Below, in pieces: positions 4,101 through 20,151 of a stretch of DNA of 64,000 nt. The stretch is from the NCBI RefSeq assembly GCF_020531915.1, contig NZ_JAJAVG010000004.1:186001-250000 (forward strand), written 5' to 3'. This DNA comes from Methylovorus mays (GTDB lineage: Bacteria; Pseudomonadota; Gammaproteobacteria; Burkholderiales; Methylophilaceae). The notes beneath the pieces were generated by a model, which was given only the letters and a program-made list of their open reading frames with translations, made no database searches and was not told the origin of the DNA. Position 1 is the first letter of the stretch. The number at the start of each line of letters is the position of its first letter. A program made the position numbers and the translations under genes.

Positions 4101-4302
4101 GCTGGGTGACGAGATACTCCACCAGTTTGGCCGACATGCCAGGCGACTCGGTCTGGATGACGAGCTGAGTAGGTGAAAACTCGGGAAATACATCCAGATT
4201 GCTACGCGACAGGCTGTAAAGGCCATAAATCACCATCAGGCTGGCAAGGCCAATAATGACACCATGGAAGCGGATGGAGAAGCGAACAAGCGCGGACATC
4301 AT
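1183..4302 (-). CDS. Heavy-metal-type RND efflux pump (CzcA/CusA-like)
   Basis: This 1039-residue protein has the length of the HME-RND family. These are inner-membrane pumps that drive proton-coupled export of metal ions through an adaptor and an outer-membrane channel. The N-terminal TM helix is followed by the typical DVFPEFSPTQLVIQTE porter segment, and two large periplasmic loops are separated by TM bundles. The TM4 proton-relay segment reads GLAIALGEVVDDAIIDTEN, with acidic residues at E400, D403, D404, D408 and E410. This differs from the D-F-G-x-x-V-D-G-A pattern of CzcA, so I do not assign a metal. The adaptor and TolC-like genes lie directly upstream on the same strand, completing a tripartite system. 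Family is sure, substrate is not. Confidence 0.93.
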   Translation of the reverse strand: MMSALVRFSIRFHGVIIGLASLMVIYGLYSLSRSNLDVFPEFSPTQLVIQTESPGMSAKLVEYLVTQPLENTIAGTVGVDKIRSQSIPGLSVVTVLFKPGTDVYRNRQVVAERLSTLASQLPHGIVPNITPLTSSASTVLGIGITSDKRTLTELRTLVDWTIRPHLMAVPGVADVNVFGGKVRQLQIQVDPQQLIRYNIGLQQVMEAASKATGVRGAGYIENKNQRIIINSEGQSYTPEQLAQVTLLHRSGQTIRLGDIGKVVEGDAPSISAAQINGQTGIYLSVQGQLGANTYAISRGLEKAIAQLEPSMNHEQVKLHPALFRPANFIETAIHGVQSDILIGSLLVITVLFLFLFNARTAFISATAIPLSLLTAVVVLQFFDIGLNIMVLGGLAIALGEVVDDAIIDTENIFRRLRENRLLPQPRAIHRVVFRASMEVRSSVVYATFIVALVFMPLLTLSGVAGKLFAPLGLAYISAILASLAVALTLTPALCYLLLGKAKLDTEDSPMIRFIKRHYVRWLYRIEAHFKLVLLITLTTIALGLGILPLFKSQFIPNLHEGHYIMHMTAVPGTSEQESLRIGKKVAETISSIKGVRSVAQWVGRAPNAADTFGTHYSEFEIEIGTVSGEEQNRILEDIREKISGYDDDGPAPPGFIGVNFAINTFLTERIEETISGYAAAQVINVYGRDLDALDRDAQAIASVVSQISGATDVLVQAPPSTPQLSIRLRPQSLLQWGLSPTDVLDTIRLAYESLPISQVYQANRVVGVSIVLAPESRQQVQQIGNLPLINNEGRLLYLRDIADITQENGRSKILHADAKRIQTVTANVTGRDIESFSEEVKTRIRDEVELSPGNYLAFSGEAEAQSQSREDLMVHSLLAVVGIFLMLYIAFGQLRNLLLTFANLPFALIGGVVAVILTGGWISLGSLVGFVTLFGITLRNAIMLVSHYQHLVDKENMVWGLETAIRGASERLPSILMTALVTALGLLPLAAGSGQPGREIEGPMATIIVGGLITSTLLNLLILPTIMLHFGRFKKASMA

Positions 4303-4384
4303 GGCAGCATCCCCTTCATGACGATGGGGGCCGCTAAAGGCGAGCCCGATGAACCAGATTTAACAGGGACGAGGTTCAAGATGC

Positions 4385-5443
4385 TTAGTCCTCGTTCTCG
4401 TTTTTGATCTGATAGCGCAACTCTTCCGATAATAAAAGCTGCACCCCGCTGACTACAATCACGCTGTCCGGCTGCAATACCCCGGCGACAAACCAGCCAT
4501 TTTCGGCCTCAGCGGCGCCTTCAATCGACAACCGTTTAAATTTATCTGATGCTGTTTGTATGTATACCCAAGGCTTGCCACCATACCAAACCACGGCACT
4601 GGCAGGCACCAGCATGCCGTTTTGGGCTTTGCTGGTCGCCAGGCTGGCGCTCACGCGCATGCCAGATCGCAACGCTGAAGCACTTGCCCGGTAAAAATAG
4701 GTTCTGCCTGCCAGCCCGGCATCGCTAACCGGGGCAATGGAGACAAGGCTGGCCTCCACGGCTTGCCCGTTGCTGCCTGTAGGCGTGAGGCTAAGATGGC
4801 TTCCGGCTGAGGGCTCAGGTGCATCAAAAGGCAGGGTGATGCGGATGAGCACTTCACGGTAATTTAACAAGGCATCAAGCATGGCGCTGCGGTCTTTTGT
4901 CGCCTCTGTCGCGAGAGTGCCTCCCCATTGCTGGCGGAGAGCATCTTCCGCACTGCGCGCTGCCGTATTGGCTGCCTGCAGTTTTGCCTGATCGGTCTTG
5001 TACAGAGCCTCTGCGGCCATGACGGCGCGTATCGAAACATTCTGATCGTCTTGATTGAGGTGTTGCAGCCGTTCATATTCCTGCCGGGTATTTTGCAGAG
5101 ACGCCTGGGTTTGCAGGGCGTCTGCGCGTGCCGCCATGTAGCGCGTGCGCAGCTCAATCAGTCCGTCAATCGCCAGCACGGTACCCAGCGCTGGCAAACG
5201 GGCGGATTGCTGAACAGGCCGTGCCTTGCCCAGTCGAATGTCGCTTTGCTGACGCGCTTCGGCAGTCAGAGTGACGATGGTCGCTCCATGCTCAGTGGTG
5301 ACGCGGCTGGGGTTCTCGATTTCCTCTTCCTGCTCACGGGTGTAAGCCTCGTATTCGTCCTTGCCATAAAACACGATCACCCAGAACATGGTAATGATGA
5401 GAATGGCTTGCAGGCTGATGATGGTGATTATTTTACGATTCAT
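4385..5443 (-). CDS. RND periplasmic adaptor (membrane fusion) protein
   Basis: At 352 residues this has the architecture of HlyD/CusB-type adaptors. An N-terminal TM anchor (about residues 5-26) is followed by a charged linker, a lipoyl/helical hairpin (Gln/Ala-rich coiled coil about residues 95-170, including ALQTQASLQNTRQEYERL), and a beta-barrel C-terminal part ending in a VLQPDSVIVVSGVQLLLSEEL segment typical of this family. It would bridge the inner-membrane pump encoded downstream to the outer-membrane factor encoded upstream. The gaps to its neighbours are 82 bp and 25 bp, consistent with one transcript. No His/Met-rich metal-binding N-terminus is obvious, so the substrate is open. 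Confidence 0.9.
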   Translation of the reverse strand: MNRKIITIISLQAILIITMFWVIVFYGKDEYEAYTREQEEEIENPSRVTTEHGATIVTLTAEARQQSDIRLGKARPVQQSARLPALGTVLAIDGLIELRTRYMAARADALQTQASLQNTRQEYERLQHLNQDDQNVSIRAVMAAEALYKTDQAKLQAANTAARSAEDALRQQWGGTLATEATKDRSAMLDALLNYREVLIRITLPFDAPEPSAGSHLSLTPTGSNGQAVEASLVSIAPVSDAGLAGRTYFYRASASALRSGMRVSASLATSKAQNGMLVPASAVVWYGGKPWVYIQTASDKFKRLSIEGAAEAENGWFVAGVLQPDSVIVVSGVQLLLSEELRYQIKNENED

Positions 5444-5468
5444 GCATAACTCCAGTATTCAGCCTGCA

Positions 5469-6905
5469 TCAGGAATTGGGCTGCGTGAGCAGCAGGTTAA
5501 GATTTTCGGGCATGCCGTTTTCATCCAGTAGCGGGCGTTGTGCGACCTGCTCTAGCGCTGCCAGCGCCTGGTTAAGCTTGTATTGCACATCGAGCAAATG
5601 CTGGCTGGCGAGCAAGGCTTCCAGCTCCGTTGTTCTCAAACTGAGCCGGTCAGCATAACCATCGGCAAATTGTCGTTGTATCTGCCTGGTAAGACCTTGC
5701 GATGTCGCTACAAACTCGCGTGCACGAGCAAGCTCCTGTAATGCTGCAGCATAGGCCGCTTCGGCGCGCTCCAGCTCGGCAATAATACGGGCCTGCAATA
5801 CTTGGAATTGTGCGCCTTCTACATCGCGTAGTGCCGTGGCTTCAGCAATCAAGCCGCGGTTTTTGTTGATCATGGTCATCAGGGCAGAAATGCCCAGCGA
5901 CCAAATCTTGTCCCCCTGGTCATAGCTATAGCCTGGCGTCAGTGTGAGATCAGGATATTGACGCGCAATTTCCAGTCTTAGCTTGGCCTCTGCGGCATCA
6001 TAGCGCGCCAGAGCGGCTCGCAGATCAAGCCGGTTAAGCATGGCCGCATCACGAACGCTGTCCAGGGTTGCTTGTGGAAGAAATGGCTCTTCCCCAAAGG
6101 CTGTCAGCGCCAACGGCAGTTGTTTGAATGTCGCAAGGGGGAGGGCACTGTTGCTGGCCAGCACGGCTTGTAGTTCAGCAAGGCGGCCTTTTTCGGTTTC
6201 TATGGCTTGCTGGGTTTTCTGGCGTAATACGCGAAAATTGGCAACCTCGATGGAGGATGCCATGCCAGATTGCAGTCGCTTTTCCAGCATGGCGGTGGTT
6301 TCGTCGCGCAGCTTCAGTTCTTGCTGCAAGAGTGCCAGCAGCTGAGTGTGGTAACGGAAGTCGAGCCAGCCTTGATGCACACGGCTGCGCACTTGCCAGG
6401 CGGTTTGTGCAATATCAATGCGGGCTGCAACTGAAAGGCTTTCGGCGCGATCAATACGCGCCTGACGCTTGCCACCAGTCTCAATGGGGATGTCTATGCT
6501 CAGGCCATAGGTCCAGGGCGAAACTCCTCCGGCATGGTCACTATGGTTTTCGCTATCAAGATTGAGCCCAGGCACTGGGCGCTGGGCCGCGGTTAACTCC
6601 GCGCTGCGCGCTGCGCGCCATTGCGCCCGGGCAAGATCCAGATCAGGGTGATAAAAGAGTGCGCTAAGGGTAAGTTCGCGCATCCCCCATGTGGAGACGG
6701 GAATCTGTGCCGCAGGGTACCCACTGTCGAGCAGATATTGTCTGAATTCAGGGCTGTCAGGATTATGGGCAAAATAGCGCTGAGCACCCGAAGGCGCATC
6801 CAGCGGTTTTGCGTTGTAGATTTGAAAGCCGCATCCCGGGATCAGCCATAATCCGGCCAATACAACTGCGTAAACTGCGGCTTTACTTGTTTTTATTTTA
6901 ATCAA
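5469..6905 (-). CDS. TolC-family outer-membrane factor, lipoprotein
   Basis: This is the outer-membrane channel of the efflux operon. The frame is open to an ATG at 6959, but I place the start at TTG 6905: it has a GGAGAG ribosome site 8 bases upstream and yields a clean lipoprotein signal, basic start then AVYAVVLAGLWLIPGC with the lipobox Cys. From this start the protein is about 478 residues, normal for NodT/TolC-type factors. Long Ala/Leu/Gln-rich helical repeats (for example LARAQWRAARSAELTAAQRP and a matching second-half repeat) are the helical barrel segments. The gene is first in the pump operon, 25 bp before the adaptor gene. The alternative ATG start would give an 18-residue extension with no apparent function. 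Confidence 0.9.
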   Translation of the reverse strand: MIKIKTSKAAVYAVVLAGLWLIPGCGFQIYNAKPLDAPSGAQRYFAHNPDSPEFRQYLLDSGYPAAQIPVSTWGMRELTLSALFYHPDLDLARAQWRAARSAELTAAQRPVPGLNLDSENHSDHAGGVSPWTYGLSIDIPIETGGKRQARIDRAESLSVAARIDIAQTAWQVRSRVHQGWLDFRYHTQLLALLQQELKLRDETTAMLEKRLQSGMASSIEVANFRVLRQKTQQAIETEKGRLAELQAVLASNSALPLATFKQLPLALTAFGEEPFLPQATLDSVRDAAMLNRLDLRAALARYDAAEAKLRLEIARQYPDLTLTPGYSYDQGDKIWSLGISALMTMINKNRGLIAEATALRDVEGAQFQVLQARIIAELERAEAAYAAALQELARAREFVATSQGLTRQIQRQFADGYADRLSLRTTELEALLASQHLLDVQYKLNQALAALEQVAQRPLLDENGMPENLNLLLTQPNS

Positions 6906-6982
6906 TGCATTGCCCTCTCCACCTCGCAGGATATTACATGGCAAGGCAGAACTGGGCAATTTGCGCGTGGGGTATTCCGTCG

Positions 6983-7231
6983 TTATTCGACGATGGCGGC
7001 GTGAACTGACGCGAGCGCGTCCTGCAAGGTTTCTTCATTCAGGCTGTTAATGCTGGTTGCCAGCAACTCAGCGGCTTCCACCGTATTTTGCGGCAGGTCG
7101 TGGCTGTCAAGTTCCGCGATCAGCCCTGCTGCGACACCGGTGACCTTGAGCAATGCGTGACGCTCGCGCATCAGCAGCTCGAGCTCCGAGCGCAACATGT
7201 TGATTTCGTCTTGATTGATGATGCTATGCAT
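6983..7231 (-). CDS. Small conserved-looking protein of unknown function
   Basis: I choose the ATG at 7231 (protein begins MHSIINQDEINML), giving 82 residues. A longer frame to 7342 begins with a sequence of unlikely composition. The protein is acidic and probably all helical, with heptad-like Leu/Ile spacing (MLRSELELLMRERHALLKVTGVAAGLIAELD), no TM segment and no Cys/His motif. It lies 77 bp upstream of the efflux operon on the same strand, so it may share its promoter. I do not recognise a family. It could be a small regulator or assembly factor, but nothing in the sequence proves it. Confidence 0.6.
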   Translation of the reverse strand: MHSIINQDEINMLRSELELLMRERHALLKVTGVAAGLIAELDSHDLPQNTVEAAELLATSINSLNEETLQDALASVHAAIVE

Positions 7232-7525
7232 GGTGTTGTTTGAATCCCTGTATCTGTAAATGATGTGCGAACAAGTCCAAATTTGAATGGCAGAACTGTA
7301 AGAACGCCTCTGCATCATGCTATTTGTGCCGCAGCCTGTCAATCCGGGCCTCGCTGATACTTCATGATGTAGTTTTCTGCGAGGCAGGAGTGAGCTACAA
7401 TGGCATTCTTTTTGAAAAAGCGTTTATTCCCTATGCGGGGTTAAACGCTGAAATTTTGATTGCAGGTGCTCCAAAGCACCCTCCGGCAAGTAAAATCGCC
7501 GGATGCTGCAATCGGCCAAAATCAT
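7232..7525. other. Intergenic region with three consecutive stem-loops
   Basis: No convincing gene is present. Three inverted repeats follow one another: 7420-7448 (arms GCGTTTA/TAAACGC plus an inner CCC/GGG), 7465-7480 (GGTGCT/AGCACC) and 7482-7503 (TCCGGC/GCCGGA). A TACAAT at 7396-7401 could be a -10 box, but the -35 (TTTTCT, 7373-7378) is weak. This is the host DNA that stood directly upstream of tRNA-Leu before the element inserted, so it probably contains the original tRNA promoter. A small RNA is possible. Confidence 0.4.
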
Positions 7526-7565
7526 TGCGAAAGTGGCGGAATTGGTAGACGCACTGGATTTAGGT
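7526..7565 (+). repeat. attL: 40-bp direct repeat, truncated tRNA-Leu 5' half
   Basis: Bases 7526-7565 are identical to 16801-16840. They comprise one base before the tRNA plus the tRNA-Leu sequence from position 1 through the end of the anticodon loop. To the left the sequence is host; to the right it diverges from a tRNA. This is the left attachment junction of the integrated element, and this tRNA copy is dead. The identity covers the 5' half of the gene rather than the usual 3' half. Confidence 0.93.
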
Positions 7566-7814: not shown

Positions 7815-8276
7815 ATGAATACTTTCCACCAGCCAGCTCTCCCCAAAATCCTAGAGGTACCCAGCCTCAATCCTCTAGCGTTGCCTAGGCCCATCTATAG
7901 CGGCAAAGTGAGGGCGGGGCAGTCCCGCTTTCCTTCTCCAGCTCAAGACTATGAGCAAGCGGAGCTGGACCTTAACAAACGGCTGGTGCGCAATCCTCCG
8001 GCTACCTTCTTCTTCACTGTCAGCGGTGACTCCATGATTGGCGCGGGCATCTTTGAAGGCTCTACGCTGGTGGTAGACCGCTCCATTAAGGCCAAGTCCT
8101 CTAGCATCGTCGTAGCCATGGTGGAGGGGGAGTTGATGGTTAAGAGGCTCTATAAGCGTGGGACCGTGGTGAAGCTCCTATCAGACAATCCCGCCTATGC
8201 CCCTATTACGCTCACAGAAGGCCAGGAACTGATTATTTGGGGAGTGGTGACCTATGTCATCAGCGCAGCAGCTTAA
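7815..8276 (+). CDS. umuD: UmuD-like SOS mutagenesis peptidase
   Basis: The 153-residue protein is the usual size for UmuD/MucA/RulA. These proteins cleave themselves on RecA filaments and the product joins UmuC to form translesion DNA polymerase V. The Ser-Lys dyad is visible: S73 in [10 protein letters not shown] and K110 in ELMVKRL. The self-cleavage site is probably A34-G35 in KVRAGQSRF. There is no DNA-binding N-terminal domain, so it is not LexA. The stop codon lies 23 bases inside umuC, indicating coupled translation. A palindromic operator sits just upstream. Its location on an integrated element matches plasmid-borne mucAB/rulAB cassettes. Confidence 0.93.
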
Positions 8277-9546
8277 GCGCGTATTCGCCCTTGCAGATGC
8301 CAATAGCTTCTATGCCTCATGCGAGAAAGTCTTCAGGCCAGACCTAGAGGGAAAGCCTGTGGTTGTACTCTCGAATAATGATGGGTGCGTGGTTGCCCAA
8401 TCCAAAGAAGCCAAGGCATTGCTGAAGCTCTGGATGTGCCGTCCGTGGTTCGAGATTGAAGAGGAAGCCCTCCGGTTGGGTGTGGTCCCGTTCTCATCCA
8501 ACTATGAACTGTACGCAAACATGAGCAATCGCTTCATGACCACCTTAAGGCAGATCTCCCCCCGGCAGGAGGTGTACTCAATTGATGAGTCATTCCTTGA
8601 GATGACGGGCATTACTCGTAACCTGACCGACTACGGCCAAGAGATAAAGCGGACGGTGAAAGACTGGACAGGGTTACCCATCTGCGTGGGGTTCGGTCAC
8701 TCCAAGACCCTAGCCAAGCTCGCCAATCATTGCGCTAAGAAGCAGATGCAATGGGAGGGTGTGTGTGACCTTACAGCGCTCTCAGAGCGTGAGCTTGAGG
8801 CTATCCTAGGGCAACTTCCGGTAGACACTGTATGGGGCGTAGGGCGACGCTTACAGGCCAGCCTAGCAACGGTAGGGGTAGAGAATGTCCTCCGATTGAA
8901 AAGGGCAGACCCTAAGCGTGTCCGAGATAAGTTCGGGGTGGTCCTTGAGCGCACCGTGAGAGAGCTTAATGGGGAGGTGCTGATTGAGATGGAGGAGATG
9001 GTACCAGAGGCTAAGCAGGTCATGTCTTCCCGGTCATTCGGTGCACGAGTCCACCAGCTCAAAGACCTTGAAGAGGCCATAAGCTACCATGCGAGCAACG
9101 CTAGCCAGCGACTCAGGAGCAAGGGCCTCTACGCTAATGCGGTGTACATCTTCATTCAGAACAGCCCCTTTGATAAGGCTGAGTACTATGGGCCTAGCTG
9201 TACCGTGGCGCTGCCCTGTCCTACGGATAACACCTTGCAGATTAACAAGGCGGCCCTATGGTTACTGAAGCGTATCTACCGCCCCGGTATCTACTATCAG
9301 AAGGCAGGGGTGATGCTGATGGAGCTGGTACCCAAAGGAGGGCAGCAGCAAGAGCTTCTAGGCTACTCTGAAGCAACGCCTAAAGCTCAAGCTTTGATGG
9401 AAACCTTGGATCGAATCAATACAAAGTATTCCAAGGGGATGCTTAAGGTGGCCTCAGAGGGGGTAGAGAACGCCTGGGTAATGCGCAGAGGCTTTAAGAG
9501 TCCGAACTATACGGGGGATTGGGGGCAGCTCAGACTCATTAAATGA
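8254..9546 (+). CDS. umuC: UmuC-like Y-family DNA polymerase V subunit
   Basis: At 430 residues this is a full-length UmuC/ImpB/MucB/SamB-type polymerase, which copies past damaged bases with low fidelity. The catalytic carboxylates are present: D15 in [14 protein letters not shown] and D111-E112 in [12 protein letters not shown]. The palm, the helix-hairpin-helix segment ([16 protein letters not shown]) and the C-terminal little-finger region all read through without interruption. It overlaps umuD by 23 bp. The stop codon TGA lies at the very border of the IS256-type insertion, but the protein looks complete. With UmuD it should raise mutation rates under DNA damage. Confidence 0.95.
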
Positions 9547-10834
9547 CTCATTGCTAAGTACCTCATCATTGAAGGTCAAAAATGAGGCATTCGGGTTTCA
9601 AACTGGATGCTGAATCGATTCAAGGCACTTTTCCAATCGCGCAAGGGTAAGTTCCAGTTTTGACTGATGTTATTCAAAGCGAGATAGAACAGTTTGATTA
9701 ACGATTCATCGTTGGGGAAGGAGCCACGGTGCTTGATGATTCTCCTTAAGCTCATATTCACCGATTCGATAGCATTGGTTGTATAGATGACGCGCCTAAT
9801 CTCGGGAGGATAATCAAAAAAGGGTGTAATTCTGTACCAGTTCCGCCTCCAAGATTGCGCGATAGGAGGGTAGAACGCGTCCCATTTTTTCTCAAATGCA
9901 GTCAACCACTCCTCAGCCTCAGCAATCGTTGCTGATTGGTATATGCGTTTTAAGTCTGCTGCGACTTCTCTGCGAAGCTTCCAATGCACGTAATTCATGC
10001 TGTAGCGCACCATGTGTACAATACATAACTGGACGGAAGTCTGTGGAAAAACTGCTTCAATTGCTTCGGGGAATCCCTTCAAGCCATCCACGCAAGCAAT
10101 GAAAATATCTTGCACCCCTCTGTTCTTCAACTCAGTAACGACTTGTAGCCAGAATTTGGCACCTTCGTTTTGAGAAATCCAGATACCCAAAACCTCCTTT
10201 TCCCCTTCCATGTTGATGCCTATTGCTAAGTAGACCGCTTTAGGCCTTACTGCACCAGTGTCTCGAACTTTTACATGTAAGCAGTCCAGGTAGACAACCG
10301 GATAGACCTCATCCAGCGGTCTGTGTTGCCATGCCTTCAGATCATCATTTACCCGATCGGTTACTGTGGAGATTGTGGATGTGGAGACTTCAAACCCATG
10401 CGTATCTTCAAGATAACTTTGAATTTGTCTGACGGTCATCCCACGTGCGTATAAGGCGATGATCTGGTCATCGTAGTTGGTTGTGTTGCTTTTGGAAGGA
10501 GTTATAAGCTGCGAGTCGAGGGGGATTTCTAGGTCATGCGAGGGTTGACCTTTAATCATTCTTTGAGAGTTTTGGGTAAAGCCATTCCCATGAGAGACGG
10601 ATGTAGACAGGGTAGAGTTTTTTACGGGTATGTTGTTCTCCGTCATCTCACTCTCAAGCACTCGCTCAATCAGTGCGCGAGCTAGTTGCTTAATGAGTCC
10701 AGCTTCTTCAATAACGCCTTCGGTCTTATATGTAGACAGAGCGCTATCCACAACATCCTTAGAGCCATCCTTGTGAACTGCTTTGATAATATCAGCCATC
10801 TGAATCTCCTAGGGTAGGGTCATTTCCAAATGAC
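9541..10834 (-). mobile_element. IS256-family insertion sequence, ends unresolved
   Basis: The insertion is defined by its transposase gene (9576-10799). A perfect palindrome GTCATTT-CC-AAATGAC lies at 10819-10834, and the half-site AAATGAC recurs at 9541-9547, spanning the umuC stop. These may be related to the termini, but I could not align convincing terminal inverted repeats or a target duplication, so the limits given are approximate. Confidence 0.6.
9576..10799 (-). CDS. IS256-family transposase
   Basis: The 407-residue protein matches the IS256 (mutator-like) family in length and motifs. The catalytic DDE triad is recognisable: D172 (VYLDCLHVKVRD), D238 (ACVDGLKGFPEAI) and E345 (YTTNAIESVNMSLRR), with the family-typical C-x-x-H box (QLCIVHMVRYS) after the second Asp. 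The frame is intact, so the enzyme may be active. It lies between umuC and the element's membrane-protein genes and points leftward, opposite to the other element genes. It was probably acquired after the element formed. Confidence 0.95.
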   Translation of the reverse strand: MADIIKAVHKDGSKDVVDSALSTYKTEGVIEEAGLIKQLARALIERVLESEMTENNIPVKNSTLSTSVSHGNGFTQNSQRMIKGQPSHDLEIPLDSQLITPSKSNTTNYDDQIIALYARGMTVRQIQSYLEDTHGFEVSTSTISTVTDRVNDDLKAWQHRPLDEVYPVVYLDCLHVKVRDTGAVRPKAVYLAIGINMEGEKEVLGIWISQNEGAKFWLQVVTELKNRGVQDIFIACVDGLKGFPEAIEAVFPQTSVQLCIVHMVRYSMNYVHWKLRREVAADLKRIYQSATIAEAEEWLTAFEKKWDAFYPPIAQSWRRNWYRITPFFDYPPEIRRVIYTTNAIESVNMSLRRIIKHRGSFPNDESLIKLFYLALNNISQNWNLPLRDWKSALNRFSIQFETRMPHF

Positions 10835-11121: not shown

Positions 11122-11664
11122 ATGCAGCGTTATTCGGAAACATCCCTTCTTGTTCTGATTTGTAATTTGCTATTCCTTACATCCTTGTTTCTACCAGCAT
11201 ACACGGTAGGAGGGATTAAAGAGGGGGCCTCGGTCATGTATGGTTACAACGCGCTATTGATTGGTTGGCTCGGCCCTTTCTCAGGCGAGTTCACATGGTA
11301 TGCCAATTTGTGTTACCTCATGGCGCTTAAAACTAAGAATATAACCTACGCCCTGCTGTGGGCAGTGAGTGGATTTGGAATTGCCCTTTCATTCCTGTTT
11401 GCTACCGAAACCTATTTGAATGAGGGAGTAGGCAATGCTCCTCTGCAATCGTATGAGGCTGGATATTATTTTTGGCTTGCTGCTATCGGATTGTTAACTA
11501 TCAGGCAAGGAATCGTAGCTTACAGTGAGGCTAAGAAGCGGGGCGGGAATGAACTTAAGCGTGGCCTAAAAGAGGTAATTGCGAAGTACTGGATGGTGAT
11601 AGCGTTTATGATCCTAGTGATTGCCGGTGAGATATTCACCTTTTCCTATAACTCTATGAAGTAG
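11122..11664 (+). CDS. Multi-pass membrane protein of unknown function
   Basis: I do not recognise this 180-residue protein. It has four or five hydrophobic segments: about residues 7-28 (LLVLICNLLFLTSLFLPAY), 44-68, 75-95, 118-135 and 156-173. No enzyme motif is visible, and the C-terminal half carries a basic loop (YSEAKKRGGNELKRGLKE). The next gene on the strand (11768) also encodes a membrane protein, and the two may form a unit. Their place on a mobile element next to recombination genes allows functions such as exclusion of related elements, but there is no direct evidence. Confidence 0.65.
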   Translation: MQRYSETSLLVLICNLLFLTSLFLPAYTVGGIKEGASVMYGYNALLIGWLGPFSGEFTWYANLCYLMALKTKNITYALLWAVSGFGIALSFLFATETYLNEGVGNAPLQSYEAGYYFWLAAIGLLTIRQGIVAYSEAKKRGGNELKRGLKEVIAKYWMVIAFMILVIAGEIFTFSYNSMK

Positions 11665-11767
11665 CCCCTAAGGATGAATCTAACCACTCGTTGTTCGTCG
11701 TCCTTCAGGCCATGCTGATTTCCCTTTGGGGCCCGATATTAAGAGCAAGACTGATGAAAGGAATGAA

Positions 11768-12139
11768 ATGGAAGAGAAAATTGAAGGGGTAGTCGTTGAA
11801 GAGTCAGCATGGTCTCTGTTTTGCCACATAACCTTGCCATTAATAGTTGCTACTCTGTTGGTGCTATACGCGATTTTTGCAGACCTGTCGGGAGGGGCGC
11901 TTCAGTTAACACAGCGAGCCGGTACGGTCATGATAGTAGTTGGGGCCTATGTAAGTTTCAAAGATTCTAAGGGTACCATTCGATCAATCCCTATGAGTTC
12001 TGGCGGAGTTAATGTTTATATTGATACCGATCTTTGGTACGGAAAATGGGGATTTGGGTATGTCGTAGCGGGGACTATCTTAAGCGGATATGGTGACCTA
12101 ATTATTTCCAAACTTCGGCATCTGGGTTGTTTTGGCTAA
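11768..12139 (+). CDS. Small membrane protein of unknown function
   Basis: The ATG at 11768 (protein begins MEEKIEGVVVEE) has AAAGGA six bases upstream, which decides the start; an upstream in-frame start at 11726 lacks this. The protein is 123 residues, with one strong TM helix (CHITLPLIVATLLVLYAIFA), a second hydrophobic stretch (AGTVMIVVGAYVSF) and a weaker one near the C-terminus. The N-terminus is acidic and probably cytoplasmic. I recognise no family. It follows the 180-residue membrane protein by about 100 bp on the same strand. Confidence 0.6.
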   Translation: MEEKIEGVVVEESAWSLFCHITLPLIVATLLVLYAIFADLSGGALQLTQRAGTVMIVVGAYVSFKDSKGTIRSIPMSSGGVNVYIDTDLWYGKWGFGYVVAGTILSGYGDLIISKLRHLGCFG

Positions 12140-12316: not shown

Positions 12317-12901
12317 ATGACCTCCACAGTATTTGCATACGGGCGCGTCAGTACCGATGAACAGACAGCAGACAATCAGTTACTTGAGATACGCAGTGCA
12401 GGGTACCCCATTGAGCCTGAATACTGGTTTGCTGACGAAGGAGTTAGCGGCAAGACTCCGGCTCTTGAGCGTCCTCAGTTCGCCAAGATGCTCCATAAGA
12501 TACGCAAAGCGGAGACCTTGGTAGTCTCTAAGATTGATCGCTTGGGGCGCGACTCTGTTGATGTACTCCAGACTGTGAGGCACCTGCAAGATATGGGGGC
12601 TAGGGTGGTGGTACTCCAACTTGGCAATACCGATCTGACCTCACCCGCTGGAAAGCTAATGCTGACCATGTTATCGGCGGTTGCAGAGATGGAGCGTACT
12701 CTCATTGTTGAACGTACCAAGGCCGGACAGGCAAGGGCTTGGGCTGAGGGGAAAACCAAGGGTAGGCCTTCTAAGACCAACGCAGACCAGCGCATGGAAA
12801 TCTTGGAGCGACTCTCTAGGAATGACTCAGTGTCGGCAGTCGCAAGGGATTATGGAATCAGCAGGGCAAGTGTGATCAGTATCCGGGATGGGGCGATCTG
12901 A
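12317..12901 (+). CDS. Serine recombinase (resolvase/invertase family)
   Basis: The 194-residue protein starts with the catalytic domain motif FAYGRVSTDEQT, where S12 is the nucleophile. It contains the conserved VSKIDRLGRDSVDVLQTV and SPAGKLMLTMLSAVAEMERTLIVERTKAG segments. It ends in a small helix-turn-helix (SVSAVARDYGISRASVISI) that would bind the inverted site just upstream. Length and layout fit Tn3-type resolvases or Gin/Hin invertases rather than large serine integrases. No invertible segment or transposon partner gene is evident nearby, so its present task (multimer resolution, or a transposon remnant) is open. Confidence 0.93.
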   Translation: MTSTVFAYGRVSTDEQTADNQLLEIRSAGYPIEPEYWFADEGVSGKTPALERPQFAKMLHKIRKAETLVVSKIDRLGRDSVDVLQTVRHLQDMGARVVVLQLGNTDLTSPAGKLMLTMLSAVAEMERTLIVERTKAGQARAWAEGKTKGRPSKTNADQRMEILERLSRNDSVSAVARDYGISRASVISIRDGAI

Positions 12902-12984
12902 CCTTTAGGCGCTGGCTCAAGGCTTCTGCAATCGAGCTATAACGCATTATTCCTAGCTCTGTAAGGGCGTGGGTCAGTGCCGTA

Positions 12985-13175
12985 ACTCTTGGATTCAACC
13001 TGTAGTACTTTTTGCGTTAGAGACTGCTGCAAGGCGAGGGGAAATACTAGCCCTGAATCTTTACTGGGACTCCGAGCAATCTCTGGTCATGCCACGGCCA
13101 ACATGTTACAACGCTACGTTTCGATTGACCCTTCCGACTTGGCGCAAAAGCTTGCGACAAACGGGATGGACTGAG
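12985..13175 (+). pseudogene. Wrecked tyrosine recombinase remnant
   Basis: Two pieces of a tyrosine recombinase lie in different frames. One reads PVVLFALETAARRGEILALN, with the first catalytic Arg box. The other reads ISGHATANMLQRYVSIDPSD, with the final His box and Tyr region. The central part between them is missing and the frame is shifted, so this is a deletion derivative. It is distinct from the intact integrase at 15652. It suggests that an earlier integrative element contributed to this island. Confidence 0.75.
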
Positions 13176-13277
13176 TCATCCGGCCCGTCCCAGGATGTTA
13201 GGACGAATGCGTCCCTGAGCGTGTATTTGTCTGGCGGTATTAGGGGTGGCTATGTACAACAATAACGAAGCGTTTTT

Positions 13278-14564
13278 ATGAGCAGTTCACTAGATACACA
13301 ACAACACAACATACCCAAGGATCGCCTCTTCAATCCCTACAGACTACCCAGTACAGATAGTGCCAAGTCACTGGTAAGGGATGTACTCAGTCAACTAATG
13401 GAATACGAGTCTCACTTGGGGCTGCGGAAGAGGAAAAGAAAAGCTGCTGATCAGCAATCCTTTGAAGCGCTTGTAACAAGCCTGGTGTGCGATCTTGTAC
13501 ACATCCATCTGTCAGCCCCTGAAAGGATGATCCACATTTCGCTATCCAAGCGTACCCAAGGCCGGATCAAGCGTTATCACGCATACTCCTTCAGCAAGAC
13601 CCTTCCTGATGTTTTGCAATGCATGGCAAGCCCGGAGATGGGGTTTGTGCATTTGGAAAAGGGGCGCAGAGGACACTTTGGTGAGGGCAAGCAAACAACA
13701 ATACTCCCAGGTCCGCGATTACTTTCGCGTATCAAAGCTGCAGAGATTGAACTGGGCGATCTGTCTGTAGACATCCATCAAGAGACTATCATACTCAAGC
13801 AGTCCAAGGGGGCTCACTGGGACAAGGGGGAGTGGGTGGATTATCAGGATGACCGTACCACAGTTGAGTATCGGGACCACATGCTCAGGATCAACCAATG
13901 GCTGGCAGATGCTGATCTGCACTGCGATCTTTTTGATGATAGCGTCATCGATGTATCAGACCGGCTTCTCAGACGGATATTCAATAACGGGTCATTTGAG
14001 CAAGGTGGAAGGCTCTTTGGTGGCTTCTGGCAGGGGATGAGCAAGCAGCAACGGAAAGGAAACCTCTTCATCAACGGTAGCCCAATAGTTACCTTAGATT
14101 TCTCTCAGGCTGGCCCCATGATTGCGTACTCACTGGCAGGTGCTACACCTCCATCTGATGATGCCTATGCCATACCGTGGTACTCAACGCCAAAGAACCG
14201 TAAGTCGGTCAAGATGGTATTCAATGCCCTGCTCTACTCGGGCAAGGTACCCACAAGATTTCCTAAGGGAACAAGGGATGGTTTTGATAAAAAGGCAACA
14301 TTCCAAACCCTCATGGAGAAGGTTGCTGAGGTACATCAGCCCATAGCTCACCTTTTTGGGACTGGCGTTGGATTCAGGATCATGTTCATGGAAAGCCAAA
14401 TACTGGTCAAAGCACTGCTGGACTGTATTGATCATGGAATAGTAGCCCTCCCTGTGCATGACGCCTTGATTGTGCCTAAGGAGAAGGCTGAGGAAGTTAA
14501 AGGGATAATGCTTGAGTCCTTCAAGGAGGTTACTGGGATAGATGGGATGGTTGAGCTTGAGTAG
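13278..14564 (+). CDS. Family A polymerase-like palm protein, uncharacterised
   Basis: This 428-residue protein has no assigned function. Its C-terminal half carries three motifs in the order and spacing of family A DNA polymerases and single-subunit RNA polymerases: motif A VTLDFSQAGPMIAYSLAG (D274), motif B NRKSVKMVFNALLY (R308, K312, Y320) and motif C LPVHDALIV (H395-D396). Both catalytic Asp positions are therefore kept. Before motif A is a conserved-looking segment RIFNNGSFEQGGRLFGGFWQ. The N-terminal half (1-210) has basic patches (RKRKRK) but no recognisable exonuclease domain. It lies between the wrecked recombinase and a Cys/His-motif gene. It may be a minimal polymerase, terminal transferase or replication protein. 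The fold call is by motif pattern only. Confidence 0.6.
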   Translation: MSSSLDTQQHNIPKDRLFNPYRLPSTDSAKSLVRDVLSQLMEYESHLGLRKRKRKAADQQSFEALVTSLVCDLVHIHLSAPERMIHISLSKRTQGRIKRYHAYSFSKTLPDVLQCMASPEMGFVHLEKGRRGHFGEGKQTTILPGPRLLSRIKAAEIELGDLSVDIHQETIILKQSKGAHWDKGEWVDYQDDRTTVEYRDHMLRINQWLADADLHCDLFDDSVIDVSDRLLRRIFNNGSFEQGGRLFGGFWQGMSKQQRKGNLFINGSPIVTLDFSQAGPMIAYSLAGATPPSDDAYAIPWYSTPKNRKSVKMVFNALLYSGKVPTRFPKGTRDGFDKKATFQTLMEKVAEVHQPIAHLFGTGVGFRIMFMESQILVKALLDCIDHGIVALPVHDALIVPKEKAEEVKGIMLESFKEVTGIDGMVELE

Positions 14565-14680: not shown

Positions 14681-15394
14681 ATGAAGAACCAGAGATTACT
14701 CGACAAGGTATCTACTCCCAACCACATGTATGCCTACTGCAGGATTATGGGCTGCTCAAATTCAGCTAGTGCAGGAACTGACAGTGGCCTGAATCGCTTG
14801 TATTGCCGCAAGCATCAGGAGCACTATTCCCGGCATGGAAGCTATATCAAGAAGAGCTATACCGCCAAGGAGATCGACCCCTATCGTAAAGTCGCCATGG
14901 GGTGGCTCAAGGCCAATCTTGATGATCCAGTAGTGGATCGCGCAATCAAGGGCATAGAGGGGTTGTACAAGTCAGCAGGACGCCATGTTGAAGCATTCAG
15001 GCTGAGTGGGCTCCCCCCACAGGAGAGAGCAAGGGCAGCATGGGCGAGGCTACGCGATGCGGGGATTGACCCTACAAAGCCGTTGGCAGCATGGATTGCT
15101 GTTGAGTTGATCTTTCTCGATGATCCACAGTCTGAGCGCAAGCAGCACTTCAGGTGGGTACAAGGGGCCAAGATCATCCATAGGCTGGCCAGCGGTTCTC
15201 ACAAGCGATGGGAGCGGCAAGATGCCAATGGCAAGGTGACTACCCTGGAGTTTCACAAGTACCCTCGCAGCCGTGGCAGAGTGCTGGTGCATTTGGGCGA
15301 ACAACTCCACAGGGTGGCCGAGCTTCTGGTAAGCCACAGGCTTGGTCAAATCAGATCGAAACTTGCTGTACTATCAAGCGCCCCTCCCTTATAG
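14681..15394 (+). CDS. Cys/His-motif protein, partner of the polymerase-like gene
   Basis: The 237-residue protein has no recognised family. Its N-terminus carries a likely zinc site: AYCRIMGCS (C20, C25) followed by LYCRKHQEHYSRHGSY (C42, H45, with further His). The remainder is basic and helical, with GLPPQERARAAWARLRDAG and a C-terminal block FHKYPRSRGRVLVHLGEQLHRVAELLV rich in Arg/His. This composition suggests nucleic-acid binding. The ATG at 14681 has AAGGAG upstream (14664-14669). The gene follows the polymerase-like gene by 116 bp on the same strand with no terminator between, so the two are probably co-transcribed and may work together. Confidence 0.6.
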   Translation: MKNQRLLDKVSTPNHMYAYCRIMGCSNSASAGTDSGLNRLYCRKHQEHYSRHGSYIKKSYTAKEIDPYRKVAMGWLKANLDDPVVDRAIKGIEGLYKSAGRHVEAFRLSGLPPQERARAAWARLRDAGIDPTKPLAAWIAVELIFLDDPQSERKQHFRWVQGAKIIHRLASGSHKRWERQDANGKVTTLEFHKYPRSRGRVLVHLGEQLHRVAELLVSHRLGQIRSKLAVLSSAPPL

Positions 15395-15651: not shown

Positions 15652-16668
15652 ATGCTAGTCTTACGTAACGGAATCTGGCAGATTCACCTGATGAAACCCG
15701 ATGGCTCTAAGCTCAGGCAATCATCAAAGACGGCTGATAAGGTTCTGGCACAGAAGCTACATGACAAAATCTCTACCGAGCTATGGGAGGGTCGGTGGAT
15801 TGATCGTAACCAGAGCGGGAATATGACCCTGGATGCAGCATTCGATAAGGTCATGGCCCAGCGGTGGGAGAAGCAACGCTCTTGGTTTAGCGTCATTCAC
15901 AATTACAACCGATTCAAGAAGTATCTCAAGGGCAGCACTAAGCTCTCTGAGATTACCCGTGCCCGCTTGTGGGAGGTGATAGGTGAAATGCGTGAAGACG
16001 AGTATACCGATGGCACCATTAATCGTTCTATGGCGGTCATATCGACTATCCTGAAAACGGCTAGGGATGACTGGGAAGTGATTGAGAAGATACCCAAGGT
16101 TCCTCTGCTGAAGGTCGGGCGTGGGAGAATGCGCTGGCTTAAGGACGATGAAGAGTTACCCTTCCTTGAATGGTTTCGTAAGCAAGGGGACCACGATATG
16201 GTAGACCTGATCGAAGTATTGTTAGAGACAGGATGCCGTGTATCTGAAATCCTCAGGCTAAAGGACACAGACGTTCATATCAACGAGCGGAGGTTGTACC
16301 TGGGAATCACCAAAAGCGGGGAAGAGGAGTACCAGCCGCTGTCAGAATATGCTTTGCAGATATTCCTACGGCGTTATAAAATCGGAGTCCCGCCGTTCGA
16401 GGGGGTGTCTAGATGGGGAGCATTAAGCCGCTTTCAGACAGCCAAGCGACACCTAGGGTACGCCGATGACCACGAGCTAGTCCTACACACAATGAGACAC
16501 ACTTGCGCTAGTCGCTTGGTTCAAAGTGGAGTGGACTTGAAGCGAGTCCAAGAGTACATGAGGCACAAGGACATCAATACCACCTTGATCTATGCCAAGT
16601 TGTCCTCCGAGGAAAACGCTAAGACAGCCTCAGTATTTGATAAGAGACGCAGTGGTAATCGTAAGTAG
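15652..16668 (+). CDS. int: Tyrosine site-specific integrase
   Basis: This 338-residue phage-type integrase is the enzyme expected to have inserted the element into tRNA-Leu. The catalytic set is complete: R196 (ETGCRVSEILRL), H279 and R282 (LHTMRHTCASRLV), H305 (YMRHKDINTT) and nucleophile Y314 (LIYAKL). The N-terminal part has an arm-binding region (residues 1-55) and a SAM-like core-binding domain (about 58-145). The gene reads toward the right junction and ends 133 bp before it. That interval has a 9-bp imperfect inverted repeat (16762-16770 with 16782-16790) that could be an arm site. No excisionase gene is recognisable. Confidence 0.95.
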   Translation: MLVLRNGIWQIHLMKPDGSKLRQSSKTADKVLAQKLHDKISTELWEGRWIDRNQSGNMTLDAAFDKVMAQRWEKQRSWFSVIHNYNRFKKYLKGSTKLSEITRARLWEVIGEMREDEYTDGTINRSMAVISTILKTARDDWEVIEKIPKVPLLKVGRGRMRWLKDDEELPFLEWFRKQGDHDMVDLIEVLLETGCRVSEILRLKDTDVHINERRLYLGITKSGEEEYQPLSEYALQIFLRRYKIGVPPFEGVSRWGALSRFQTAKRHLGYADDHELVLHTMRHTCASRLVQSGVDLKRVQEYMRHKDINTTLIYAKLSSEENAKTASVFDKRRSGNRK

Positions 16669-16801
16669 TAAGTGTGTCTATTTTGTGTTTTCACCTGCAC
16701 AAATTTGACACAGGTAACATGGATGTACAGGTGGGGGTTAAGCCCAAGATTACCTAATAAGTGTATGTTTTGTAACGATTTAAGCATACATTTTGACACA
16801 T
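16669..16801 (+). other. Element right-end region upstream of rebuilt tRNA-Leu
   Basis: No gene is present. It holds an imperfect inverted repeat TGTATGTTT/AAGCATACA (16762-16770 and 16782-16790), and TTGACA at 16705-16710 and 16793-16798. Neither TTGACA has a good -10 box at 16-18 bp that could start the tRNA transcript. Since the tRNA is now preceded by this DNA, transcription must come from here or from the integrase gene. Confidence 0.4.
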
Positions 16802-16840
16802 GCGAAAGTGGCGGAATTGGTAGACGCACTGGATTTAGGT
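16801..16840 (+). repeat. attR: right copy of the 40-bp direct repeat
   Basis: Identical to 7526-7565. It is the 5' half of the functional tRNA-Leu gene through the anticodon loop, and the host-derived 3' half follows it. The crossover occurred somewhere inside the 40 bp. Confidence 0.93.
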
Positions 16841-16886
16841 TCCAGCGCCGCAAGGCGTGAGAGTTCGAGTCTCTCCTTTCGCACCA
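16802..16886 (+). tRNA. leuW: tRNA-Leu (anticodon UAG)
   Basis: An 85-nt class II tRNA: acceptor GCGAAAG/CTTTCGC, anticodon stem CTGGA/TCCAG with loop TTTAGGT giving anticodon TAG (reads CUN Leu codons), a variable arm, T-loop TTCGAGT, A73 and encoded CCA (16884-16886). Its 5' half is duplicated at 7527-7565, marking element insertion. The tig gene starts 31 bases after it. The symbol follows E. coli usage for the UAG isoacceptor and is tentative. Confidence 0.95.
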
Positions 16887-16917
16887 GACAACTTCTTTAG
16901 CTTTTAAGGAATACAGC

Positions 16918-18219
16918 ATGGCAGCAACCGTTGAAACCATCAGCAATCTCGAGCGCCGCATTACCGTTTCGGTGCCACTGAAGCCTATCGAGGAAGAAGT
17001 GACTCAGCGGATCAATCGTTTGGCTAGAACTGCCAAGCTGCCAGGGTTCCGTCCGGGCAAAGTCCCCATGAAGCTGGTTTATCAGCAATATGGTGCTCAG
17101 GTGCGCGACGAAGTGTTCTCAGGTGCTGTTGAGCGTACCTTTACTGAAGCCGTGCAAGAGAACAAGCTGCGTGTTGCTGGCTACCCTAATATCGAGCCAA
17201 AGCAATCCGAAGGTGGCGATCATTTTGAGTACGTGGCTACCTTTGAAGTGTTTCCCGAATTTGAAATTGGCGATCTGAGTAAGGTCAAGATTGAGCGCCC
17301 GGTTCTTGAGGTCGGCGAGGCTGATGTCAAGAAAACGACCGATGTCCTGCTGAAGCAGCGCGCCACTTACGAGCCAGTAAAACGCGCATCCAAAAAGGGT
17401 GACAAGGTGAATATTGCCCTGCGTGCATTGATTGATGGCAACGAGGTTGAGCGTACTTCCGAGCAAGGTCTTGATCTGATTCTGGGTGAGGGCGGTCGTG
17501 TGGCTGAGTTCGATGACAATCTGATCGGGAACAAGGTTGGCAGCCAGAAAACGTTTGATATTGCCTATCCGGCAGAGCACAAGCCGGAACAATTGGCTGG
17601 CAAGACGGTCACTTATGAAGTGACGTTCAATACGGTTGAACAAGCCAAGCTGCCTGAACTGGATGCTGACTTCGCCCGCGGTCTTGGAGTGGAAGATGGC
17701 GACGTTGAAAAAATGAAAGCTGAAATCAAGCAAAGCCTGGAGCAGGAAGTCGCCAAGCGCGTGCGTGCCAAGGTGAAGGAGCAAGTGTTCCAGGCCTTGG
17801 TTGAGAATGTTGCCCTTGAGTTGCCGAAGGCGATTATTGAGGCTGAAACAAATCGCGTCATGCAGGCTACCCAAAATAATCTGCAACAACGTGGTGTGGA
17901 TGTAAGCACGGTTACTCTTGATCCAGCGATGTTTGAGGAGCAAGCCAAGCGCAACGCAAGCCTGCGTCTCATTCTGTCTGAGTTGGTGAACAAGAATTCA
18001 TTGCAGGCCAATGCCGAGCAGGTGCGTGCCATGGTGGATCAGTTTGCACAGAGCTTTGAGCGTCCTGAAGATGTCGTTCGTTGGTACTACGACGATCCTA
18101 AGCGTCTGGATGAGCCTGCTTCCCTGGCAACCGAAGAAAACGTGGTTAACTGGGTGTTGCAGTCCGCCAAGGTGAGCGACAAGAAAGTTAAATTTGACGA
18201 TTTGATGGGGAATGCTTAA
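16918..18219 (+). CDS. tig: Trigger factor, ribosome-associated chaperone
   Basis: The 433-residue protein is the usual trigger factor length. It binds ribosomal protein L23 at the exit tunnel and shields nascent chains; its middle domain is a peptidyl-prolyl isomerase. The N-terminal ribosome-binding signature is clear: [14 protein letters not shown] (about residues 42-55, containing the GFRxGKxP motif). The FKBP-like domain spans about 155-245, and the C-terminal helical arms follow. An AAGGA ribosome site precedes the ATG. The stop overlaps the clpP start (TAATG), so translation is coupled. The gene directly follows tRNA-Leu and heads the protein quality-control cluster. Confidence 0.98.
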
Positions 18220-18845
18220 TGAGCATGCAAAGTCAGTGGGAACCGCAAGGCCTGGGGTATATCCCCATGGTCATCGAGCAAAGTGGGCGTGGTGAGCGTG
18301 CATACGACATCTACTCCCGCTTGTTGCGCGAGCGTGTGATTTTTCTGGTAGGTCCGGTAAATGACATGACTGCCAACCTGGTAGTCGCGCAATTGCTGTT
18401 TCTGGAAGCGGAAAATCCTGACAAGGACATCTCGCTCTATATCAATTCCCCTGGCGGTTCCGTGACCGCTGGCATGGCAATCTATGACACCATGCAGTTC
18501 ATCAAGCCGGATGTAAGCACTTTGTGTATTGGTCAGGCGGCCAGCATGGGGGCTTTGCTGTTAACAGCAGGTGCCAAGGACAAGCGGTTTTGCCTGCCTA
18601 ACTCGCGCGTGATGATTCACCAACCATTAGGCGGGTTCCAGGGTCAGGCTTCCGATATTGAAATTCACGCCAAAGAGATTCTCTATTTGCGTGAAAAGCT
18701 CAACCTGATTCTGGCCAGTCACACTGGTCAGCCAGTGGATGTGATTGAACGCGATACGGATCGTGATAATTTCATGAGTGCGCAGCAGTCGGTCAATTAC
18801 GGCTTGGTCGACAAGGTGATTGCAAGTCGTACTGATGCCGCTTAA
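18219..18845 (+). CDS. clpP: ATP-dependent Clp protease proteolytic subunit
   Basis: At 208 residues this is the serine peptidase that forms the double heptameric chamber loaded by ClpX or ClpA. The catalytic triad is present: S109 in [13 protein letters not shown]134 in [10 protein letters not shown] and D183 in RDTDRDNF. It begins at the A of the tig stop (TAATG) and lies 34 bp before clpX. The first 11 or so residues would be a propeptide removed on assembly, as in E. coli. Confidence 0.98.
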
Positions 18846-18879
18846 GATGGTGTCGTGCGTTTCAGATTAGGATAGTTTC

Positions 18880-20151
18880 ATGACTAAAGAAGCCGAAGGC
18901 GAAAAGTTACTATATTGCTCGTTCTGCGGTAAAAGCCAGCACGAAGTCAGAAAGCTGATTGCAGGTCCATCCGTATTCATTTGCGATGAGTGCGTGGATC
19001 TTTGCAATGACATCATTCGTGAAGAAGTGCAGGGCGACAGCAGCCTGAAGCCAAATGGCGACCTGCCCACTCCCAAAGAAATCTGCAATATCCTTGACCA
19101 GTACGTTATCGGTCAAACCCAGGCCAAGAAAAACCTGGCAGTAGCGGTATACAACCACTACAAGCGTCTGGACCAGTCTGCGACGAAAGACAAGGATGAG
19201 GTTGAGATTGCCAAGAGTAACATTCTGGTCATTGGCCCAACAGGCTCGGGTAAAACCTTGCTGGCTCAGACTCTCGCACGTCTTCTGGATGTGCCGTTTG
19301 TCATGGCCGATGCGACCACGCTGACCGAAGCGGGCTATGTGGGCGAAGATGTTGAAAACATCATGCAAAAACTTTTGCAAAAATGCGACTACGACATCGA
19401 AAAAGCCCAGCGCGGTATCGTATATATCGATGAAATCGACAAGATTTCCCGTAAATCCGACAATCCTTCCATCACCCGGGATGTATCGGGCGAGGGCGTG
19501 CAACAAGCCCTGCTCAAGCTGATCGAAGGTACGGTTGCTTCAGTTCCTCCACAAGGTGGTCGCAAGCATCCTAATCAAGAATTTGTGCAGCTGGATACCA
19601 CCAACATCCTGTTCATTTGCGGTGGCGCATTTGATGGTCTGGACAAGATCATTCGCCGTCGCTCGGAAAAGGGTGGCATTGGTTTCGGCGCTGAAGTGAA
19701 GAGCAAGGATGATCTGCGCGAAGTCGGCGAAGTATTGCGTGAAGTTGAGCCGGAAGATCTGATCAAGTTTGGTCTGATTCCTGAGTTTGTTGGCCGTTTG
19801 CCCGCTATTGCCACTCTGGAATCGCTGGACGAAGACGCCTTGATGAAGATTCTGGTTGAGCCCAAGAATGCGCTGACCAAGCAATATGCCAAGCTGTTCA
19901 AGATGGAAGGCGTGGAACTCGAGTTCCGTGAATCTGCTCTGCGCCTGATCTCCAAGAAAGCATTGGAACGCAAAACAGGCGCGCGTGGCCTGCGCTCCAT
20001 CATGGAGCACGCTTTGCTTGAGATCATGTTTGACCTGCCTTCCATTTCCAACCTCACCAAAGTGGTTGTCGATGAGGGTGTCGTTCGAGGCAATAATCCT
20101 CCCATCATGATTTACTCCGAGGAAGCTCGGACTGCAGAATCCGCCAGCTAA
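18880..20151 (+). CDS. clpX: ClpX, AAA+ unfoldase of ClpXP
   Basis: The 423-residue protein has the N-terminal C4 zinc domain (C13, C16, C35, C38: YCSFCGK ... [10 protein letters not shown]), which recognises substrates and adaptors. The AAA+ module follows, with Walker A GPTGSGKT (119-126), Walker [10 protein letters not shown] and the sensor/arginine-finger region. The IGF-type loop that docks on ClpP is in the expected region. It unfolds tagged proteins (for example ssrA-tagged) and feeds them to ClpP, encoded just upstream. A 169-bp gap separates it from lon. Confidence 0.98.

Follow-up and report, generated by a model that had tools for sequence, protein, structure and literature searches.

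An island-borne TV-Pol/divPolA2-type polymerase of Methylovorus mays with a zinc-finger neighbor is a candidate chain-starting enzyme

We analyzed a 64,000-nucleotide stretch of the Methylovorus mays genome (contig NZ_JAJAVG010000004.1, positions 186,001 to 250,000, hereafter the window) and found that the gene at positions 13278-14564 of its forward strand encodes what is, judging from its residues and predicted fold, a real, conserved and active-looking member of the known TV-Pol/divPolA2 polymerase family. The most likely role of this 428-residue protein, which we favor with some rather than strong confidence, would be that of a chain-starting polymerase (a primase or a replicase) belonging to the mobile island that carries it. 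The initial annotation had presented the protein as a candidate for an undescribed activity, but the family itself was previously described, as TV-Pol since 2008 (PMC2579912) and, for its phage branch, as divPolA2 since 2024 (available text of PMC11348598). What is new is that its carrier is a 9,275 bp tRNA-Leu island for which an empty site exists, that both residues of the nucleotide-choosing gate are absent, and that a zinc-finger protein accompanies the polymerase. Since the ribonucleotide-excluding residues are absent and a zinc-finger protein adjoins the polymerase, whether such an enzyme starts DNA or RNA chains becomes a testable question.

The open reading frame claimed by the initial annotation is indeed present, with motif A at D274, motif B as R308xxxK312 and motif C at H394-D395, D274 and D395 being the predicted catalytic residues; motif C had been correctly recognized, but its earlier numbering (H395-D396) was one too high. 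Relatives were searched for in genome contigs, where 113 were found and the best 80 of 113 were retained, and the 82 loci analyzed gave 87 matching ORFs, 77 of which are at least 400 aa long. One alignment (A4, n=76) brings together the window's polymerase and 75 of these 77 ORFs, leaving out L072 (identical to L071), L078 and the 10 ORFs shorter than 400 aa. A wider alignment (A1, n=25, including 3 sequences from phages) took 24 of 31 matches, setting aside the polymerase's match to itself, a single duplicate and five sequences that were cut or short. Fifteen positions are invariant in all 76 sequences of A4 (R199, R233, G244, R245, W251, D274, Y297, R308, K312, H353, E372, S373, L391, H394 and D395), and D295 is kept in 75 of 76. 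In A1, G244, R245, R259, D274, Y297, K312 and D395 are invariant (25/25), while R308 shows one gap and H394 one exception. Both catalytic aspartates are thus kept throughout, as had been proposed: no sequence in either alignment departs at D274 or D395. The polymerase is also under purifying selection in its relatives, with dN/dS values of 0.16-0.40 for five pairs, none of which includes the window's own gene. At three loci (L060, L085 and L110) the polymerase gene consists of two ORFs, from decay or sequencing error. At two others, a second piece of this gene, short and inverted, lies near a contig end (L059, 479-697; L063, 3-152), suggesting two inverted copies per genome.

A structural model of the polymerase built from A4 (mean pLDDT 93.9, pTM 0.90) predicts with high confidence a family A fold with palm and fingers, which was the arrangement that the initial annotation had wanted checked by structure prediction. 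The PDB matches listed by Foldseek for this model are Pol I-type DNA polymerases (best E 7.5e-7), and VIA-align superposes it both on a DNA polymerase I structure, apPOL (Z 15.1, 235 residues at rmsd 3.3), and on the mitochondrial RNA polymerase of yeast (Z 13.9, 244 residues at rmsd 3.4), the listed structural alignments spanning 224-246 of the 428 residues. In the model, R245 sits in a predicted strand (243-248). Profile-profile comparison gave a score of 42.7 for A1 against 26 PolA sequences and of 41.8, over 45 columns at motif C, against the C-terminal halves of phage RNA polymerases, when the top score among 29 further families taken from these loci was 23.9, that of reversed PolA 14.8 and reversed RNA polymerase 14.4. 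The unguided alignment between A1 and PolA placed D274, R308, K312, H394 and D395 on the equivalent residues of Pol I. The family A motifs read from the DNA by the initial annotation are borne out by the fold model, the invariant residues and this pairing alike. An equation of D295xY297 with the DxH of PolA was dropped, as a recount on the alignment puts D295xY297 three columns short.

The polymerase is akin to Pol I and T7-like RNA polymerases in a way that is visible by fold and by profile-profile comparison. A Pfam search with it gave no match to PF00476 (hits above E 0.1 being mostly lost to HMMER filtering) or to PF00940, the T7-like RNA polymerase family, and nothing meaningful came from Pfam, NCBIfam, PDB sequences or PADLOC. 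Weak matches to DUF5431 (E 0.19), PRK13720 (E 0.023) and antibody light chains (best E 0.13) were taken as chance, and the A4 and A1 profiles retrieved no polymerase from PDB sequences. The protein shares the palm/fingers fold and motifs A, B and C with DNA polymerase I, and the palm/fingers fold with T7-like RNA polymerases, its motif C being matched with the phage enzymes. It differs from both groups in its lack of a Pfam match, of an exonuclease recognized by Pfam and of a recognized family in its N-terminal half.

These traits agree with what was put forward for the TV-Pol family by Iyer, Abhiman and Aravind (2008, PMC2579912), who predicted its members to be prim-pols of replicative mobile elements, minimal relatives of Pol I and T7 RNA polymerase with the task of priming and copying mobile DNA. 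TV-Pols were described as 400-600 aa proteins with a palm holding two Asp, a hairpin Arg and fingers with an Asp and RxxxK, in neighborhoods of gamma-delta resolvases, lambda-type integrases and restriction genes (PMC2579912). The window's polymerase shares the size, the two-Asp palm (D274/D395), the hairpin Arg (R245) and the fingers residues (D295 and R308xxxK312), and it shares the recombinase neighborhood, with a resolvase and an integrase both on its island; that island is devoid of a helicase, unlike the loci of TV-Pols linked to D5. Gate residues are left undiscussed in the 2008 text (PMC2579912). The same text mentions an all-helical domain, found also as a separate protein beside TV-Pol, and, for a different TV-Pol, a domain that chelates Zn; the zinc-finger partner presented further on may correspond to either. 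The phage branch, divPolA2, was characterized by Yutin et al. (2024, PMC11348598, as far as its available text goes) as having an active palm and no known thumb, with a repair DNA polymerase or an RNA polymerase proposed as its function. Our polymerase matches barbavirus and Vibrio phage proteins, has a palm predicted to be active, and counts both DNA and RNA polymerases among its structural matches; what sets the members analyzed here apart is that they are island genes beside recombinases, and the phage records gave no tblastn match to the partner.

Direct comparisons with phage proteins pointed to the same family. The polymerase matches phrog_4756, of unknown function, with E 7e-39, and so do all 76 members of A4; in a BFVD search, ranks 1-11 all had E 1.2e-16 or better, one of them from phage Barba31A. 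At one of the analyzed loci (L110, from Yoonia vestfoldensis SKA53, formerly Loktanella), the broken family member adjoins a DUF5906/VapE-like protein, DUF5906 being what we take to be D5-helicase-like. Loktanella vestfoldensis had been named in 2008 for a TV-Pol beside a D5-like helicase (PMC2579912). Phage Ma-LMM01, also named there, gave in the first 50,000 of its 162,109 bases a best A1-profile match to gp030, beside transposases, which is weak (E 9e-4, 95 profile positions).

The island that carries the polymerase is bounded by perfect 40 bp direct repeats on the plus strand, attL at 7526-7565 and attR at 16801-16840, which correspond within one base to the first 40 nt of tRNA-Leu(UAG). 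Two same-genus genomes (G413 and G431) have the empty site: at one locus (L196), window positions 6031-7565 (86%) and 16801-18899 (92%) are matched side by side, and at the other (L197) the site is likewise uninterrupted (84% and 91%). The repeats, together with this uninterrupted site in two relatives, set the size of the island at 9,275 bp. The insertion, in the 5' half of tRNA-Leu, leaves an intact tRNA (16801-16886; the tRNA-Leu gene itself runs over 16802-16886 and starts within attR) just behind the integrase gene, and since this intact tRNA-Leu stands directly behind that gene, the island probably supplies its promoter. Just outside the island, window positions 1183-6959 hold RND-type efflux genes (a CusA/CzcA-like pump, an adaptor and an outer membrane part), the pump scoring below the family cut-off.

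From left to right and on the plus strand unless indicated, the island encodes umuD-type (7815-8276; NCBIfam NF007621 over cut-off) and umuC-type (8254-9546; NF002955 over cut-off) cargo genes, an IS256 family transposase on the minus strand (9576-10799; PF00872, E 5e-100; NF033543), a 180 aa protein of unknown function (11122-11664; no match in Pfam, PHROGs, PADLOC or NCBIfam at the thresholds used) and a 137 aa protein of unknown function (11726-12139; no match in Pfam, PHROGs or PADLOC at the thresholds used). These are followed by a small serine recombinase of the resolvase/invertase type (12317-12901; PF00239, E 4.5e-38), a 98 aa ORF whose translation looks by eye like a putative tyrosine-recombinase remnant (12969-13265; no match in Pfam or PHROGs), the polymerase, its zinc-finger partner (14681-15394) and, next to attR, a tyrosine integrase (15652-16668; PF00589, E 1.4e-23). 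As umuD-umuC (7815-9546) is of the DNA polymerase V type, two polymerases unrelated to each other are present on the island. Scans of its nine further genes with Pfam, PHROGs and NCBIfam revealed, besides umuDC, neither a helicase nor any other replication gene. The initial annotation had called the island non-replicating-looking, which now seems doubtful: since the polymerase is, umuDC cargo aside, the only replication-type gene recognized there, it may copy the island.

Islands of this kind recur around the relatives of the polymerase. tRNA genes were scanned for in 60 of the 82 loci and found in 35, and tRNA-anchored direct repeats of at least 17 bp were counted: such a repeat occurs in 18 of the 35 tRNA-bearing loci, and it encloses the polymerase in all 20 rows (19 distinct repeats), with spans of 5.5-14.3 kb. 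The repeat corresponds to the 3' part of the tRNA in 17 of these 18 loci and to the whole gene in one (L060), so that the window's island is odd among them in using the 5' half. Recombinases are frequent as well, with neighbor clusters each named from one representative: members of a resolvase cluster (representative L074, PF00239) lie within 7 kb of the polymerase in 56/82 loci, and no more than 1.5 kb upstream of it on its strand in 33/82, while two tyrosine integrase clusters are found in 52/82.

Pol I excludes ribonucleotides by means of E710 and F762, and CcPol, a family A polymerase of SCCmec mobile elements, keeps both equivalents (PMC7581432, in its available sections); the window's family has neither. 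The position five residues after D274 aligns with the gate Glu of Pol I and the position four residues after K312 with the motif B Phe, and in the window's polymerase these are G279 and N316. Across A4, the first position is Gly in 21 sequences, Ala in 17, Phe in 12, Asn in 9 and other residues in the remainder, with Glu in 0/76, and the second is Asn in 47, Ser in 19 and others elsewhere, with Phe in 0/76; in A1, the gate Glu and the Phe are each present in 1/25. Because both ribonucleotide-excluding residues of Pol I are missing, the polymerase may make RNA or mixed primers. In 5/82 loci (L043, L086, L093, L102 and L114), a gene of an RNase HI cluster (representative PF00075) is at most 150 nt away from the polymerase gene or overlaps it, and in 7/82 such a gene lies within 7 kb. 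These adjoining genes, together with the missing gate residues, suggest the handling of RNA. Loss of the gate need not mean ribonucleotide use, however, and CcPol-MP itself uses dNTPs (available sections of PMC7581432).

CcPol-MP, a related enzyme of mobile elements, makes primers in vitro (PMC10061031, available part; PMC7581432, available sections), and, to the knowledge of the authors of the eLife 2020 study (PMC7581432, available sections), no TV-Pol but CcPol has been biochemically characterized. In both systems, a small partner gene accompanies a family A polymerase carried by a mobile element, and site-specific recombinases are encoded nearby. They differ in that MP has a predicted OB fold, whereas the window's partner is mostly helical in its model, and in that the 17 surveyed PolA-SSB pairs are closely associated with a helicase gene (PMC10061031, available part), whereas no helicase was found among the scanned genes of the window's island. 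At both positions that select deoxy- over ribonucleotides, the window's branch is unlike CcPol, and its partner is of a different kind.

The partner itself, a 237 aa protein, is encoded at 14681-15394, on the same strand as the polymerase gene that it adjoins. Its copy in the window has no Pfam, PHROGs, PADLOC or NCBIfam match. The partner gene adjoins the polymerase gene on the same strand in 43/82 loci, 25 times downstream and 18 times upstream, and both gene orders occur across several parts of one FastTree, support values not being considered. Within the family, the zinc-finger residues C20, C25, C42 and H45 are invariant, as is G53, with R51 and H52 nearly so, and dN/dS is 0.155 and 0.17 for two pairs. 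Among 398 genomes, 11 have the partner, 24 the polymerase and 7 both, whereas chance alone would give 0.7 (11 x 24 / 398); in these 7 genomes, the two lie no more than 0.8 kb apart. As for the four genomes with the partner only, one (G091) has a near full-length match and the other three have weak or broken ones. Partner and polymerase genes are frequently adjacent, but the partner is not obligatory: it is absent from 39/82 loci (some of which end at contig ends), and a tblastn search of 50,697 phage records found no match. Nor is it fused to the polymerase, as no ORF among loci L001-L119 contains both. The partner model (pLDDT 89.4) has two strands, forming one hairpin (175-191), and is otherwise helical, and on this mostly helical predicted fold an OB-fold SSB like MP was rejected.

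An unlikely reading, yet the best placed of the rivals, is that the polymerase is a DNA-directed RNA polymerase, in its bold form a split T7-like enzyme with the partner as its N-terminal initiation domain and 13278-14564 as its catalytic domain, transcribing the island's genes. The missing Pol I gate would suit such an enzyme. So would the position of G279, which by spacing from motif A (T7 letters checked) is that of T7 G542, and Y297, which resembles T7 Y571 by eye, a likeness made without a tool-made alignment. The gene arrangement is suggestive as well, 13 of the 18 upstream partners overlapping the polymerase ORF or lying within 13 nt of it (first possible starts taken). Moreover, the best structural matches of the partner are N-terminal domains of single-subunit RNA polymerases, from T7 (Z 7.5, 140 residues) and human mitochondria (Z 6.2 and 6.1) at ranks 1-3 and from N4 (Z 3.9) at rank 13, but Z values below 8 may be chance for helical models, and none of the partner's Foldseek matches was significant (best E 0.4). 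In sequence comparison, the partner reached 19.7 against 11 phage RNA polymerase N-terminal regions, which 3 of 29 unrelated families (19.8-20.7) and the polymerases' own C-terminal half (19.8) exceeded; a score of 19.6 did stand above the maximum of 16.0 from 60 column-scrambled controls, a control that is too easy. The likeness is thus weak by fold and not above background by sequence. RPOL_N is absent from the Pfam families listed for 44 partner-family members, and no partner was found in the phage records by tblastn. Yutin et al. also left an RNA polymerase possible for divPolA2 (available text of PMC11348598).

Also unlikely, and a little less credible to us, is a related proposal by which the polymerase and its partner would be the two parts of a split RNA primase or single-subunit RNA polymerase, possibly of an ancestral-like kind, carried as a pair by a small island to start its own transcripts or primers. 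If true, the partner would be a free-standing counterpart, with an added zinc finger, of the N-terminal initiation domain of T7 and mitochondrial enzymes, and a family A-type enzyme would have its initiation domain as a separate, order-swapping gene.

We instead favor the reading of a chain-starting polymerase, for which the fold, the invariant residues, the prim-pol context (PMC2579912), the priming by CcPol-MP, the loss of the gate and the lack of another replication gene besides umuDC all speak, as do the tRNA-anchored repeats enclosing the polymerase (18/35), the adjoining RNase HI-cluster genes and the host's own PolA. According to this model, the polymerase would start chains de novo on the excised island, D274 and D395 holding two metal ions, R308 and K312 binding the incoming triphosphate and R245 contacting primer and template, in keeping with the roles of such residues in family A enzymes. 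The zinc-finger partner would grip the template during chain start, in line with other primases, in which zinc domains or second subunits hold the template (PMC7581432, available sections), and the island would copy itself before re-integrating. Against this reading stand the facts that activity in the window's branch is a prediction, that a helicase is absent from the island, unlike for CcPol-MP and D5-linked TV-Pols, and that the partner is missing from 39/82 loci. With a small island of known ends and an empty-site control at hand, priming, replication and transcription become distinguishable by experiment, as does the nucleotide used.

A repair or gap-filling DNA polymerase that aids integration or supports the host appears distinctly improbable. 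Its small family A fold with no recognized exonuclease, the serine and tyrosine recombinases nearby, the umuDC cargo and the repair function proposed for divPolA2 (available text of PMC11348598) would fit such a role, but the gene is sporadic, being present in only one of three genomes of the genus, the host genome has its own PolA, and the Pol I gate residues are missing. A defense gene acting by templated or untemplated nucleotide addition is very improbable. Type I restriction gene clusters near the polymerase (11-13/82 loci) would speak for it, but restriction genes look like variable cargo, neither polymerase nor partner has a PADLOC 2023 match, and relatives occur in 238 phage records.

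More broadly, a sample of 398 genomes from the phylum contained relatives of the polymerase in 24 cases, its own genome counted, and so did 238 of 50,697 phage records, 115 of them Rheinheimera and 97 Vibrio phages including ICP1; the Rheinheimera phage matches have E 1e-6 to 2e-6 among the matches listed. IMG/VR gave no relative with single-protein queries and 2 with an alignment (A2) as query. Of 72,556 plasmid records, 3 also hold a relative. The initial annotation was upheld in seeing here a reduced polymerase of family A type, carried by a mobile island and related to proteins of plasmids and of proteobacterial islands. In the cholera phage ICP1_2006_A (L115, 5188-6675), the relative is annotated merely as a hypothetical protein (TUST1-17_00500), and some large Vibrio phages have two polymerase matches at separate places in one record. 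Finally, in Rhodobacteraceae HTCC2083, a 5.2 kb stretch with polymerase and integrase occurs twice, far apart in one genome and 99.9% alike (L071 and L072), which suggests recent movement or duplication.
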